DNA of 64,000 bases from assembly GCA_036567785.1 (NCBI GenBank), contig DATCTV010000030.1, positions 62,001 to 126,000 of the forward strand, given 5' to 3'. This document shows positions 9,751 to 16,264 of the stretch, piece after piece. The stretch comes from Desulfomonilia bacterium (GTDB lineage: Bacteria > Desulfobacterota > Desulfomonilia > UBA1062). Under the pieces are notes generated by a model. It saw only the letters and a program-made list of their open reading frames with translations, was not told the origin of the DNA and did not search any database. The position numbers were made by a program, and so were the translations under genes. The stretch's first letter is position 1, and each line of letters begins with the position of its first letter.

Positions 9751-11520
9751 CTAACAGGCCCGGGTCTTTTCCATGATTTCAAGGATATCGATGCTGTGTT
9801 CGATGGTCTTGAGGGTGGCATTCAGGTTCTCGATCTCCCCTGCATACTTTTCGACAGTAGCACTGTCAGTCTCTCTGGCCATATCCTTCTTGATCTTTGA
9901 TTTCAATCCCCTGAAATAGGATACCTCTTTATCCGACATGGAAAGGATCCTGGGCACCTCTGTCTGTGAACCCGATGTGGTCTCTCTTAAAAATTCAATA
10001 ATGTCGGGTGATTCCGACCTTGTCAGGCCATGCTGCATATCGGTATCCATAAACTGGATGTCGTTATAATAAAATCCCAGAACACTGCGTATCAACCGAG
10101 CCCTCGATTTGCACAGAAGAGGCAGGTATTCCTTTTCAAACTTCTCCAGAAGAACGTTTATCTTTATCTCGTATTCCCGCTCTTCGTCACTGTGGTCGCT
10201 CAGGAAATACCCGTTTATTTCGGGAAGGAACAGATCATGATATGACATGAGCGCCATTAAGATAATGAAGTCGGCGACAACATTACCGTTTGTCGTGCAT
10301 GAACTTGTAGATATGGCCCCGCCCCTTGAAATAATTTCCTGAGGGGCCTTGACAAACCAGTCTGTCCCGAAGATTCCCGGTATGTTGGTAATGGCTTCGA
10401 ATTTTACTCCTTTCTTCCTGACTTCATTGACGAACTCCCTGTCTCTGTAAACGAGACCTGCAGCCTTGACATTCGGAAGCATGGCGCCATAGACGAAACC
10501 GTATTCATTATCCTCATAGAAAGAGAATTTAATATAGTCGGGTGTGCTTACATTCATGAATTCCGGAGGGAAATTCACAAGGACTGTCTCTCCTTCGACC
10601 TCTTTTATCGTCTGGGGCTGAGAGGGCATGAATTTTACATAAGGTGAAAACATTTCATTTGATGAAATTATTTCTGTTATCCGTTTGAAGAGCGAACTGA
10701 ATTTCCGGGAAGCCTTCGAGAATTCATATTTCTTGAAATCAAACAGGGGCCGCTTCAGTGTGAGGCCTGTCCTGAACAGGGTTCCTGTGGGGCTGTAATT
10801 TCTGGTGCACAAGACGCTGATTGTATACTGCTTGGAAAACAGTCTTTTTTCCCATCCCTTTGCAGGTGCGGACTCGACAAAGGCCAGGGCGTAGTCCTTC
10901 TCATGGCATTTGGTAAGCCATTTTTTCATGGAGTCTGCTTTCTTGGCCGTATCGCCCACGCATGAAAGCAGTACATTGGCGCCGAGATCGCTGCTCAAGT
11001 CCAGAACCCTGTCCATTATAGCCTCGGCAGAAAGCTCTCCGAAACGGACATTGACATGCCTTATCGTCAAAAGCTCCGTGTTCCTGTCTGAAGACAGGAT
11101 CCTTATTGCAGGCAGCCCCTCTTCGGTTTCAACGATTTCCTGTCTGGAAAACGGGATTATATGCCTTCTCTGAGGTTCTTCATCCAGCTTCTGTTCGACA
11201 TAGCGGGTTCTCAATTCAAATTTGCCGTCAGACTTTGTACGGAATACCGGATGCCCGTTCTTGTCGTAGCCTTCAAGTATCTTGCTTTTCTCGCTCCTGA
11301 GGACTCCGGCCAGAAGCTGCTGAACAGTAGGTATATCAGCGGTGAACGCACCGAACACTATATCTATCCAGACATCATCGGATTTGAGGCTGCCCTCAGC
11401 CGATCTTTTGAGGATACTATCGTTATTTTCTACAGATGCATAGATAGCCTGAAGACCCATCCTGCCGTTTGCGCCCCTTATAGCGACCTTTATTACCGGG
11501 ACATTGTGTCGGTTTTCCAT
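9751..11520 (-). CDS. large GAPDH-like protein with unusual motif order
   Basis: 589 residues from ATG 11520, chosen over an upstream in-frame start because GGAGG lies just before it. The N-terminus has a Rossmann-type start (RGANGRMG, about residues 11-18) and a following stretch resembling the GAPDH NAD domain. A perfect GAPDH catalytic motif SCTTN occurs at residues 407-411 (Cys408), not near residue 150 as usual. A DNEYG motif (337-341), resembling the canonical C-terminal DNEWG, comes before the Cys rather than about 160 residues after it. A His 35 residues after Cys408 could be the base (27 in the canonical neighbour). The C-terminal ~180 residues are helical and charged. A normal gap is 3 kb upstream on the same strand, so this is a divergent paralogue; activity and substrate are unknown. 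Lies downstream of a CarB-like gene. Confidence 0.6.
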   Translation of the reverse strand: MENRHNVPVIKVAIRGANGRMGLQAIYASVENNDSILKRSAEGSLKSDDVWIDIVFGAFTADIPTVQQLLAGVLRSEKSKILEGYDKNGHPVFRTKSDGKFELRTRYVEQKLDEEPQRRHIIPFSRQEIVETEEGLPAIRILSSDRNTELLTIRHVNVRFGELSAEAIMDRVLDLSSDLGANVLLSCVGDTAKKADSMKKWLTKCHEKDYALAFVESAPAKGWEKRLFSKQYTISVLCTRNYSPTGTLFRTGLTLKRPLFDFKKYEFSKASRKFSSLFKRITEIISSNEMFSPYVKFMPSQPQTIKEVEGETVLVNFPPEFMNVSTPDYIKFSFYEDNEYGFVYGAMLPNVKAAGLVYRDREFVNEVRKKGVKFEAITNIPGIFGTDWFVKAPQEIISRGGAISTSSCTTNGNVVADFIILMALMSYHDLFLPEINGYFLSDHSDEEREYEIKINVLLEKFEKEYLPLLCKSRARLIRSVLGFYYNDIQFMDTDMQHGLTRSESPDIIEFLRETTSGSQTEVPRILSMSDKEVSYFRGLKSKIKKDMARETDSATVEKYAGEIENLNATLKTIEHSIDILEIMEKTRAC

Positions 11521-11645: not shown

Positions 11646-14549
11646 TTAACCTCTTATGGGTTTTAAGGGTTCCGATGTGTTCGCCTGAGCCTCTATACCC
11701 TTTACTGCTGCTATTGCGCCTGCAATTGTTGTAACGTAAGGAACCCGGTATGCGATTGCAGCCTTTCTGATATAAGAATCGTCATGCCTGGACAGCCTGC
11801 CGCTCGGCGTGTTTATGATAAGGCTGTACTCGCCGTTCTTGATGTCGTCGACTATATTGGGCCTTCCTTCGTAGACCTTGAGCACGATGGCGGCATTAAT
11901 GCCGTTTTCATTCAGGTATCCGGCAGTACCCTTAGTCGCGCATATTTCAAATCCGAGAGCCTTGAGCTTACGGGCAGTATCAAGCAGTTTCAACCTGTCA
12001 TTTCTGGAAACGGTAATCAGCACTTTTCCTTTTTCAGGAAGACCGAAACCGGATGCTTCGAGCGCCCGTGAGAAAGCAAGACCGAAATTGTCCGCTATGC
12101 CAAGGGATTGACCTGTAGAACGCATTTCAGGCCCCAGAAGAGGGTCAACACCGGCAAATACGTCAAATGAGAATACAGCTTCCCTTACACCGTAATGATT
12201 GAGTTCAGGCTCGACTATTCCCATATCTTTAATCTTGATCCCGGACATGGCCTTTATGGCGCATTCCACCATCGGGACACCGGTCACTTTTGATATCAGC
12301 GGAACCGTCCTCGATGCCCTCAAGGATATTCCGAGGCAATAAACATTTTTCTCGTGAACGGCAAACTGCGCATTCATGAATCCCGTCACGCCCAGGTATT
12401 TTGCAATGCCGGATACATATTCACGGATTTCAACAAGGTTCTCTTTCGAGATGTTGATGGGAGGCACCACACATGCTGCGTCACCGGTATGTATGCCTGC
12501 ATGCTCGACGTGTTCGACTATAGCGGGAATCAATATATCCGTCCCGTCACATACGGCATCGACCTGGGCCATGAAACCACCTTCAGGAAATTTCTCGACA
12601 AATACGGGAAATACTGCATCCTGAATATGTTTTTCCAGCGACTTTATATCATTGATTATAACATTTAAGCGGCCATCCGGTGCTTCGGTCTCAGGCAGTA
12701 TAATCACGGGAAAACCCGTTTTATTTGCGGCAGACACCAGCTCAGCAGCGTTCCTAGCCGGCATGGCCTGAGGAATCGGCAGCTTTATCATCTTTGCGAT
12801 TTCGGCTAGCCCCTGTCTGCTTTCAGCCTTGATGGCCTTTTCGGGCCGTGTTCCCAGAATCCTGATCCCTGCCGAATCAAGCTTTGCGGCAATCTCCTGG
12901 GCATACATTCCTCCCGTCTGCCAGATAAGACCCCGGGGTGAGCGTTTAATGCTTATTCCGGCTATGCTTTCAAAATCAAGTGGACTGATTATCGTATCAA
13001 TACCGGTACCCGGAACCGATGCGATGCCGTAAGGATTCGAGTCCACCGCTATCACATCGATTCCCATCGATTTAACAGCATTGGCCGCTTCGAAGCTCAT
13101 GGCTGAAAGCTCCTGTCCCTCGCCGATCCTTGAAGGGCCGCTGCAGATGATCATGACCGGACCGTCGTCTGATTGTTCATATTTTTCAATTACGTGTGTT
13201 TTTTGGGAAGCCGTGGATTTCATCTTTTCAATGAAGAACGGTTTTATTTTTGTAAGTTCCGCGATTATTGAGGCATCAAAGCCTTTATTGAGCAATTGAC
13301 GGATTATCGACAGTCTCCCGCCGGCAGGCTCAGAAAGAAGCTGGATGAGATCATCTGTTTCAAGCCCCTCATATTCATCATGGCCGAGTTCCTGGGAGCG
13401 CATGGCATTAAGGAAGGCCTCGGTGAAATCAGAACCGATGCCTATCGAAGCTCCCGTTGACTGCATCCTTGTATTGAGCCTGCCATCAGCACCCTCAAAC
13501 TTGTCGAACTGGAAAACCGGTATCCTTACTGCTGTTGTTTCCGGGGACGGTATTGAATCAAGATTCTGCTCTTTTAATGAAACACCTGCTGCGCACCTTG
13601 CCGCGGCCTGGGCCAGATTGATCCCTGTTGCGGCTGCAGCGAAGGCACTCGAACGTGAATAGCGAGGGTTGATTTCCAGCACGAGCAGTCTTTCGGTGTG
13701 TTCTTCATAACCGAACTGAATATTTGCGGTCCCTTTTATACCCAGTTCGGATGCAAGAACTGATGATATTTCATCCATCTTTTCCCTTATCTTTTCCGGG
13801 ATTGTCTGCATTGGAATCACTGCGACCGCATCACCCGAGTGAATACCCATCTGATCAAGGTTTTCCCTGAAAATGACTGTGACGGCATGCCCTTTGTTGT
13901 CGCACAGCACCTCGGTTTCAAGCTTCTCCCAGCCAAACAGCGATTCTTCTATCATGACGGGTGAGGATGCACCGGTAATGCTTCCTGCAACCACCCGAAG
14001 ATCTTCGACATTGTATACGAGCGATGTCCGGCCGGCGCCTGCTGATGAAGGCCTTACTACAACGGGATATCCGAATAGTGAAGCCTGCCTTTCCGCTTCA
14101 TCGATGCTAAGTGCAAGCGCGGACCTTGGCATGAGGATGCCCAGGCGCGAAAGCTTTTCCTTGAGCAGCATCCTGTCGCTGAAGGTTTTTATTGCCTCAA
14201 TGCCCGATCCCATTATTTGAATGCCGTCAAGGGCGTTTTTCTGGTGAAGCTCTATGGCGAGAGACAGCGCAGGCGCGCCTCCAAACGCCGGCAGAAGGTA
14301 TCCGGGTTTCTCCGTCTTTATTATATCGATGATGGAGACGGCCTTGATCGGGGCCACATATGTTCTCGCAGCATAAGTCAATAATCCGGCAGGATTGGCA
14401 TCAATGGCTATAACATCGAACCCGGATTTCTTTAATGTTAATGCAGCAGTTGCAGCAGCAAAATCAAGCTCGCTGCCATGGCCTATTCTTACAGGTCCGG
14501 GGCCTATTATCAGCACCCTGCCCGGTCTGCTATCTAACGGCATAAACAC
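11646..14549 (-). CDS. CarB-like protein (carbamoyl-phosphate synthase large-chain homologue), degenerate
   Basis: 967 residues with the duplicated ATP-grasp layout of CarB plus a C-terminal MGS-like domain (about 845-960), against about 1070 in typical CarB. The first half keeps the Mg/ATP residues (IQF..., LEINPR.SRSSA). In the second half the usual LEVNPRASRTVP reads LGISLRASRTVP: the metal-ligand Glu and Asn are Gly740 and Ser742. The RPS arginine of the second ATP site is Leu618. The oligomerisation region is also short: the usual GFSD and CAAEFEA segments between the halves are missing. The second reaction, phosphorylation of carbamate, is therefore doubtful. No carA lies nearby. It could be a repurposed paralogue rather than the housekeeping enzyme; a normal carAB may sit elsewhere. 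A GAPDH-like gene follows 125 nt downstream. Confidence 0.75.
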   Translation of the reverse strand: MFMPLDSRPGRVLIIGPGPVRIGHGSELDFAAATAALTLKKSGFDVIAIDANPAGLLTYAARTYVAPIKAVSIIDIIKTEKPGYLLPAFGGAPALSLAIELHQKNALDGIQIMGSGIEAIKTFSDRMLLKEKLSRLGILMPRSALALSIDEAERQASLFGYPVVVRPSSAGAGRTSLVYNVEDLRVVAGSITGASSPVMIEESLFGWEKLETEVLCDNKGHAVTVIFRENLDQMGIHSGDAVAVIPMQTIPEKIREKMDEISSVLASELGIKGTANIQFGYEEHTERLLVLEINPRYSRSSAFAAAATGINLAQAAARCAAGVSLKEQNLDSIPSPETTAVRIPVFQFDKFEGADGRLNTRMQSTGASIGIGSDFTEAFLNAMRSQELGHDEYEGLETDDLIQLLSEPAGGRLSIIRQLLNKGFDASIIAELTKIKPFFIEKMKSTASQKTHVIEKYEQSDDGPVMIICSGPSRIGEGQELSAMSFEAANAVKSMGIDVIAVDSNPYGIASVPGTGIDTIISPLDFESIAGISIKRSPRGLIWQTGGMYAQEIAAKLDSAGIRILGTRPEKAIKAESRQGLAEIAKMIKLPIPQAMPARNAAELVSAANKTGFPVIILPETEAPDGRLNVIINDIKSLEKHIQDAVFPVFVEKFPEGGFMAQVDAVCDGTDILIPAIVEHVEHAGIHTGDAACVVPPINISKENLVEIREYVSGIAKYLGVTGFMNAQFAVHEKNVYCLGISLRASRTVPLISKVTGVPMVECAIKAMSGIKIKDMGIVEPELNHYGVREAVFSFDVFAGVDPLLGPEMRSTGQSLGIADNFGLAFSRALEASGFGLPEKGKVLITVSRNDRLKLLDTARKLKALGFEICATKGTAGYLNENGINAAIVLKVYEGRPNIVDDIKNGEYSLIINTPSGRLSRHDDSYIRKAAIAYRVPYVTTIAGAIAAVKGIEAQANTSEPLKPIRG

Positions 14550-14673: not shown

Positions 14674-16264
<1,591 letters not shown>

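Follow-up and report, generated by a model that had tools for sequence, protein, structure and literature searches.

A 589-residue protein of the Desulfomonilia is probably a very distant GAPDH-fold member with a permuted catalytic domain

Results

A long open reading frame with GAPDH motifs in the reverse order

The window analyzed here is a 64,000-nucleotide stretch of a Desulfomonilia bacterium assembly (GCA_036567785.1, contig DATCTV010000030.1, positions 62,001 to 126,000). An open reading frame at 9751-11520 on the minus strand encodes a protein of 589 residues, almost twice the 337 residues of GAPDH, as the preliminary description had reported. Its ATG is preceded by TTACTGGAGGTTTCAT, and a Shine-Dalgarno sequence, GGAGG, lies shortly upstream. 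A longer TTG frame reaching 11550 was unsupported, and the ATG at the 11520 end was preferred because relatives start at the equivalent residue. The ordinary GAPDH of the window is encoded ∼3 kb upstream (14674-15687, minus strand), matches the Pfam models Gp_dh_N and Gp_dh_C strongly and carries Cys153 in SCTTN followed by DNEWG near residue 315. The reverse order described earlier for the 589-residue protein was also confirmed, with DNEYG at residues 337-341 and the GAPDH active-site motif SCTTN, containing Cys408, at 407-411. Both motifs are invariant in the 20-22 family members compared, and the order is the same in all of them. From the composition of the protein itself, 7e-5 occurrences of SCTTN and 2e-4 of DNEYG would be expected by chance; the other open frames, with GAPDH excluded (∼301,000 residues), contain SCTTN 0 times, DNE[YWFLTM]G 2 times and both together 0 times. 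Because the motifs are invariant and these counts are tiny, a chance origin of either motif is very unlikely on sequence grounds. The suggestion that one of them is coincidental was rejected, since order and motifs are kept across the family and their joint chance is tiny.

In the window, the gene follows the ordinary gap gene and a divergent carbamoyl-phosphate synthase large-chain paralogue (11646-14549, minus strand, 967 residues), which falls short of the TIGR01369 cut-off. Two canonical carbamoyl-phosphate synthase large chains are encoded elsewhere in the genome, making the window copy a third, divergent one. Among relatives, the gene is usually flanked on one side by a divergently transcribed FAD oxidoreductase gene (L-2-hydroxyglutarate/glycerol-3-phosphate oxidase type) and on the other by a NIF3 family gene, with a dihydroorotase-like amidohydrolase gene nearby. 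The oxidoreductase adjoins the family gene at loci L001-L007, L086, L088, L089, L091, L094 and L095 and is absent beside the window gene. Kept among relatives and different in the window, this neighborhood is no firm functional clue.

A family conserved across one order

A first scan of genome contigs returned 8 relatives at 60-68% identity, and 22 family members share 58-68% identity with the window protein. Essentially single-copy, the gene was found in 22 of the 24 genomes in the GTDB order, including 16 of the 16 of good quality; among the genomes examined, the GTDB family of the window is the whole order. None of 383 further genomes of the phylum carried it, and the viral contigs searched held no relative. 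Relatives are labeled as Deltaproteobacteria or Syntrophaceae metagenome-assembled genomes, one being Syntrophaceae bacterium UBA1062, and the order appears to be uncultivated. Ordinary type I GAPDH is also present in nearly all genomes of the order. Because it accompanies nearly all copies of the family gene, the 589-residue protein cannot simply be assumed to be the glycolytic enzyme.

Comparison of the window gene with L001 gave a pN of 0.19 against a saturated pS, showing purifying selection. The stretches RGANGRMG, SAPAKG, SPTGTLFRTG, FSFYEDNEYG, STSSCTTNG, TDMQHGLTR and SGSQ are unchanged across the family, and Ser407, Cys408, Thr409, His497, Thr500, Arg250, Asn338 and Gly517 are all invariant. 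Diversity within the family is low, which, like the modest model confidence given below, is a weak point of the permuted-fold reading.

Segment map of the protein

Searches of Pfam, NCBIfam and PDB sequences with the family in its natural order returned no GAPDH. Within Pfam, all 20 members shared just one signal, a sub-threshold DapB_N match at the nucleotide loop (best E 0.005; 15.9 bits for the window protein, below the cut-off of 25.6), and NCBIfam behaved likewise. Re-ordering the sequences, as set out below, still gave no GAPDH match in Pfam or in a PDB profile search. The correspondences to GAPDH were drawn from hhalign, MAFFT, secondary structure prediction and inspection by eye, and all coordinates refer to the minus strand.

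Residues 1-242 (segment A, 10795-11520) probably form a Rossmann NAD(P)-binding domain equivalent to about residues 1-135 of GAPDH, as suggested by hhalign, predicted strands and helices and the weak DapB_N match. This segment alone aligned globally by hhalign with GAPDH 1-157 at P 3.6e-4. The invariant GANGRMG within it (residues 16-22, 11455-11475) was placed by both MAFFT and hhalign on the dinucleotide-binding loop of GAPDH, GFGRIG. Residues 243-357 (segment D, 10450-10794) are assigned from prediction, VIA and hhalign to the latter half of the catalytic domain together with the C-terminal helix (GAPDH ∼226-334), with a predicted strand at 329-336 followed by a helix at 339-357. The segment opens with the invariant SPTGTLFRTG (residues 243-252, 10765-10794), in which Arg250 is proposed, by eye, as the counterpart of GAPDH Arg231 in LTGMAFRVPT; hhalign puts RVPT a few residues after that match. 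The invariant DNEYG (10498-10512) falls on the DNEWG of GAPDH, which contains Asn313. MAFFT, unprompted, aligned GFGRIG to residues 16-22 and DNEWG to 337-341, the latter under all but one of four settings, and hhalign agreed.

A linker follows (residues 358-397, 10330-10449) that may be what is left of a second Rossmann half and that scores like shuffles once SCTTN is removed. Prediction and hhalign identify residues 398-527 (segment BC, 9940-10329) as the likely Cys149-to-Gly209 half of the catalytic domain, here placed after DNEYG, with SCTTN, then a helix at 410-440, then a strand at 488-493. The invariant SCTTN (10288-10302) was aligned by hhalign so that Cys408 corresponds to Cys149. An insert of ∼53 residues (433-485, 10066-10224) separates the Cys helix from the His strand; it is not found in GAPDH, is poorly conserved and is modeled as long helices of high pLDDT. 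His497 and Thr500, in the invariant TDMQHGLTR (residues 493-501, 10018-10044), are proposed by eye as His176 and Thr179; the invariant QHGLT (496-500) fits the general-base motif T-x-H-x-x-T by eye only, and hhalign did not recover the match of His497 to His176. The nearly invariant RETxSGSQTEVP (residues 512-523, 9952-9987) was matched by hhalign, as TTSGSQ, to the TTTGAA of GAPDH that contains Thr208 and Gly209. A C-terminal coiled-coil tail of variable sequence (residues 528-589, 9754-9939) completes the protein, with predicted helices at 529-549, 553-574 and 579-587.

His497 and Gly517 are 20 residues apart, as compared to 33 in GAPDH, and because of this shorter spacing the S-loop would be shortened in the 589-residue protein. 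The S-loop lines the NAD site of the neighboring subunit in GAPDH tetramers. With the loop cut, the quaternary structure may differ from that of GAPDH.

Only one segment order fits a GAPDH profile

A GAPDH profile was built from 44 sequences of the phylum and compared by hhalign to the family alignment, which was divided into segments A (1-242), D (243-375) and BC (398-432 plus 486-527). Re-ordered as A-BC-D, with breakpoints chosen after the motifs were seen, the family profile fitted globally to all 337 of 337 GAPDH columns (P 3.6e-8, probability 93.5); in its natural order it failed to align globally (P 0.65). When the six possible orders were compared, only A-BC-D fitted, with a score of 43.8 as compared to 28.2 for the next best. 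Column shuffles (n = 60) reached 8.1, and shuffles with the three motifs kept in place (n = 100) reached 15.5. Calibration by the same method gave P 8.6e-6 for type II versus type I GAPDH and 1.4e-10 for Asd/ArgC versus GAPDH, so the value of the re-ordered family is within the range of true fold relatives. The paired motifs were GANGRMG with GFGRIG, SCTTN with SCTTN, TTSGSQ with TTTGAA and DNEYG with DNEWG.

The match was directed at GAPDH, as global comparison of the re-ordered family gave P 0.8 with Asd/ArgC and P 0.95 with DapB. Asd/ArgC in natural order gave a global P of 0.81, and its best local matches (P 0.0078-0.011) were limited to 20-24 columns at the nucleotide loop. With a profile of type I GAPDH only, the local alignment remained colinear across the three pieces and spanned 215 columns; the global alignment failed with this profile and with one of long GAPDHs only, and only the local one held. 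A comparison of the pieces separately gave weak or no signal, and none for individual pieces without SCTTN or DNEYG.

Predicted structures

An AlphaFold2 model was generated from the family alignment alone, without templates; GAPDH fragments were kept out of the alignment, as MAFFT scattered them and they would bias the model. The model is weak (pLDDT 61.3, pTM 0.63), and pLDDT falls below 50 in the N-domain and in the loops of the active site. The fold search suggested earlier nevertheless pointed to GAPDH: the best 50 Foldseek matches in the PDB were all GAPDH or erythrose-4-phosphate dehydrogenase, with an E of 1.7e-3 at best and low TM-scores. These include 2ep7, a GAPDH titled only by its project number, aq_1065. 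By VIA, residues 10-357 of the model superimpose on GAPDH 27-334 (Z ∼4.6), a match that runs from segment A into D and leaves out the Cys half. Predicted helices begin immediately after Asn338 and immediately after Cys408; in GAPDH, helices start right after the corresponding Asn and Cys.

A second model, built for the ortholog L002 truncated ahead of its coiled coil, was poorer (pLDDT 51.9), and its Foldseek matches were again mostly GAPDH, at non-significant values. VIA treated residues 238-498 of this model as one ferredoxin-like unit and matched residues 238-388 to GAPDH 226-329. Two further sets of VIA matches were set aside: needle chaperones and other coiled coils concern the tail only, and IS200-type transposases share only a common ferredoxin-like arrangement.

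Discussion

Because only the re-ordered profile aligns end to end with GAPDH and the best 50 Foldseek matches are all GAPDH or erythrose-4-phosphate dehydrogenase, the permuted order is supported. The 589-residue protein is thus probably a very distant GAPDH-fold member whose catalytic domain appears to be permuted. The preliminary description had proposed a permuted or inserted domain or, failing that, a coincidental motif; permutation gains from the profile and the fold search, insertion from residues 433-485, and coincidence has fallen away. The results support describing the family as a remote GAPDH homologue with swapped segments, and not as an identified GAPDH enzyme.

Ordinary GAPDH runs from A (Rossmann) through BC (the Cys149/His176/Thr208 half) to D (the half from Arg231 to Asn313, with the C-terminal helix). 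The protein described here would instead run A, D, linker, BC with its helical insert and coiled-coil tail. If the pieces refold together, Cys408, His497, Asn338 and Arg250 would meet as Cys149, His176, Asn313 and Arg231 do. Cys408 could then attack an aldehyde carbonyl, with hydride passing to NAD(P)+ and the resulting thioester being released by phosphate, and Ser407, Ser516/Gly517 and Arg250 would contribute to the phosphate site. The substrate would be a phosphorylated aldehyde distinct from the glyceraldehyde 3-phosphate of glycolysis, because nearly every genome of the order has an ordinary GAPDH. That the protein acts on such a substrate as an aldehyde-phosphate dehydrogenase, using NAD(P) and forming a thioester, is a conjecture with a little under an even chance of being right. 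The fuller proposal, a naturally permuted and active GAPDH fixed across one order for a separate aldehyde-phosphate reaction, is put forward tentatively. A replacement for a missing enzyme was rejected, as GAPDH types I and II and DapB are all encoded in the genome, along with at least one match of the Asd/ArgC type.

Either transposition or duplication with complementary loss would yield the A-D-BC order, and the two differ on origin, with the same topology. If two GAPDH-like copies arose in tandem or were fused, the first would have kept A and D and the second its Rossmann end and BC, leaving the linker at 358-397 as the second Rossmann remnant. The length, near twice that of GAPDH, fits such an event, as does the alignment of residues 358-404 to GAPDH 101-157 with SCTTN included (P 6.8e-5). 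However, the linker without SCTTN scores 15.9 against a shuffle maximum of 19.5 and shows no match to the protein's own A domain, and a search of 297 genomes turned up neither an unrearranged nor a doubled ancestor, so that we regard this origin as rather unlikely.

Two further readings concern function and fold. Cys408 could be reactive in a GAPDH-fold pseudoenzyme or redox sensor that regulates or scaffolds, as the added coiled coil and helical insert, the shortened S-loop and the presence of an ordinary GAPDH might suggest; all proposed catalytic positions are invariant, however, which is unusual for a pseudoenzyme, and we consider this role improbable. We give still less credence to a different fold altogether, in which a DapB-like Rossmann domain is joined to an unrelated α/β domain and the GAPDH-like motifs arose by convergence or chance. 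Its case consists of DapB_N as the one Pfam signal in all members, the placement by VIA of the catalytic part on common ferredoxin-like folds (Z 5-6) and the weakness of the predicted models. Against it, the GAPDH profile match is order- and family-specific and extends beyond the motifs, GAPDH dominates Foldseek, and the joint motif chance is tiny. DapB shares the GANGRMG-type nucleotide loop of its N-domain with the family but lacks DNExG, gives no global profile match and is encoded separately in the genome; it is not known to have a catalytic Cys.

With the permuted GAPDH fold as the preferred reading, the family can be set beside its nearest known counterparts. Type I GAPDH (PF00044 plus PF02800) shares with it GxxGRxG, SCTTN, a TTTGAA-like motif, DNExG, the predicted Rossmann domain and the helix after Asn. 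It differs in having the catalytic halves in the opposite order, 337 as compared to 589 residues, no insert of ∼53 residues or coiled-coil tail, a longer S-loop and no Pfam-detectable similarity to the family. The long GAPDH NF006139 (PRK08289, ∼480 residues) also exceeds the usual length, but its extra residues precede a normal-order GAPDH (L073, L074). The second GAPDH-like proteins, of 405-440 residues, that many genomes of the phylum encode (L066-L070, L072, L076-L078) likewise carry insertions but, unlike the 589-residue family, keep the normal order of SCTTT followed by DNELG or DNEYG; the gene at L066 is immediately upstream of an ordinary gap gene. Type II (archaeal-type) GAPDH has the same superfamily fold. 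In the window's genome it has the normal order with an SCNTT motif (L071, 1465-2487 of contig C4, minus strand), and this single sequence gave no match to the re-ordered family.

GAPDH is one of the most studied enzymes, with a topology generally regarded as fixed. A literature search for permuted GAPDH found nothing relevant, which is no proof that none is described. If the permutation is real, the catalytic domain tolerates re-threading while the active-site residues stay, and the family would offer a test case for how such permutations arise. The family also represents an uncharacterized core protein of an apparently uncultivated order that curated family models have missed. Separately, several genomes of one genus contain another weak match to Gp_dh_C, with E values of about 1e-9 to 1e-10 in frames of 418-466 residues, for example at G017:C14:196795-197247 and G003:C30:98488-98940.
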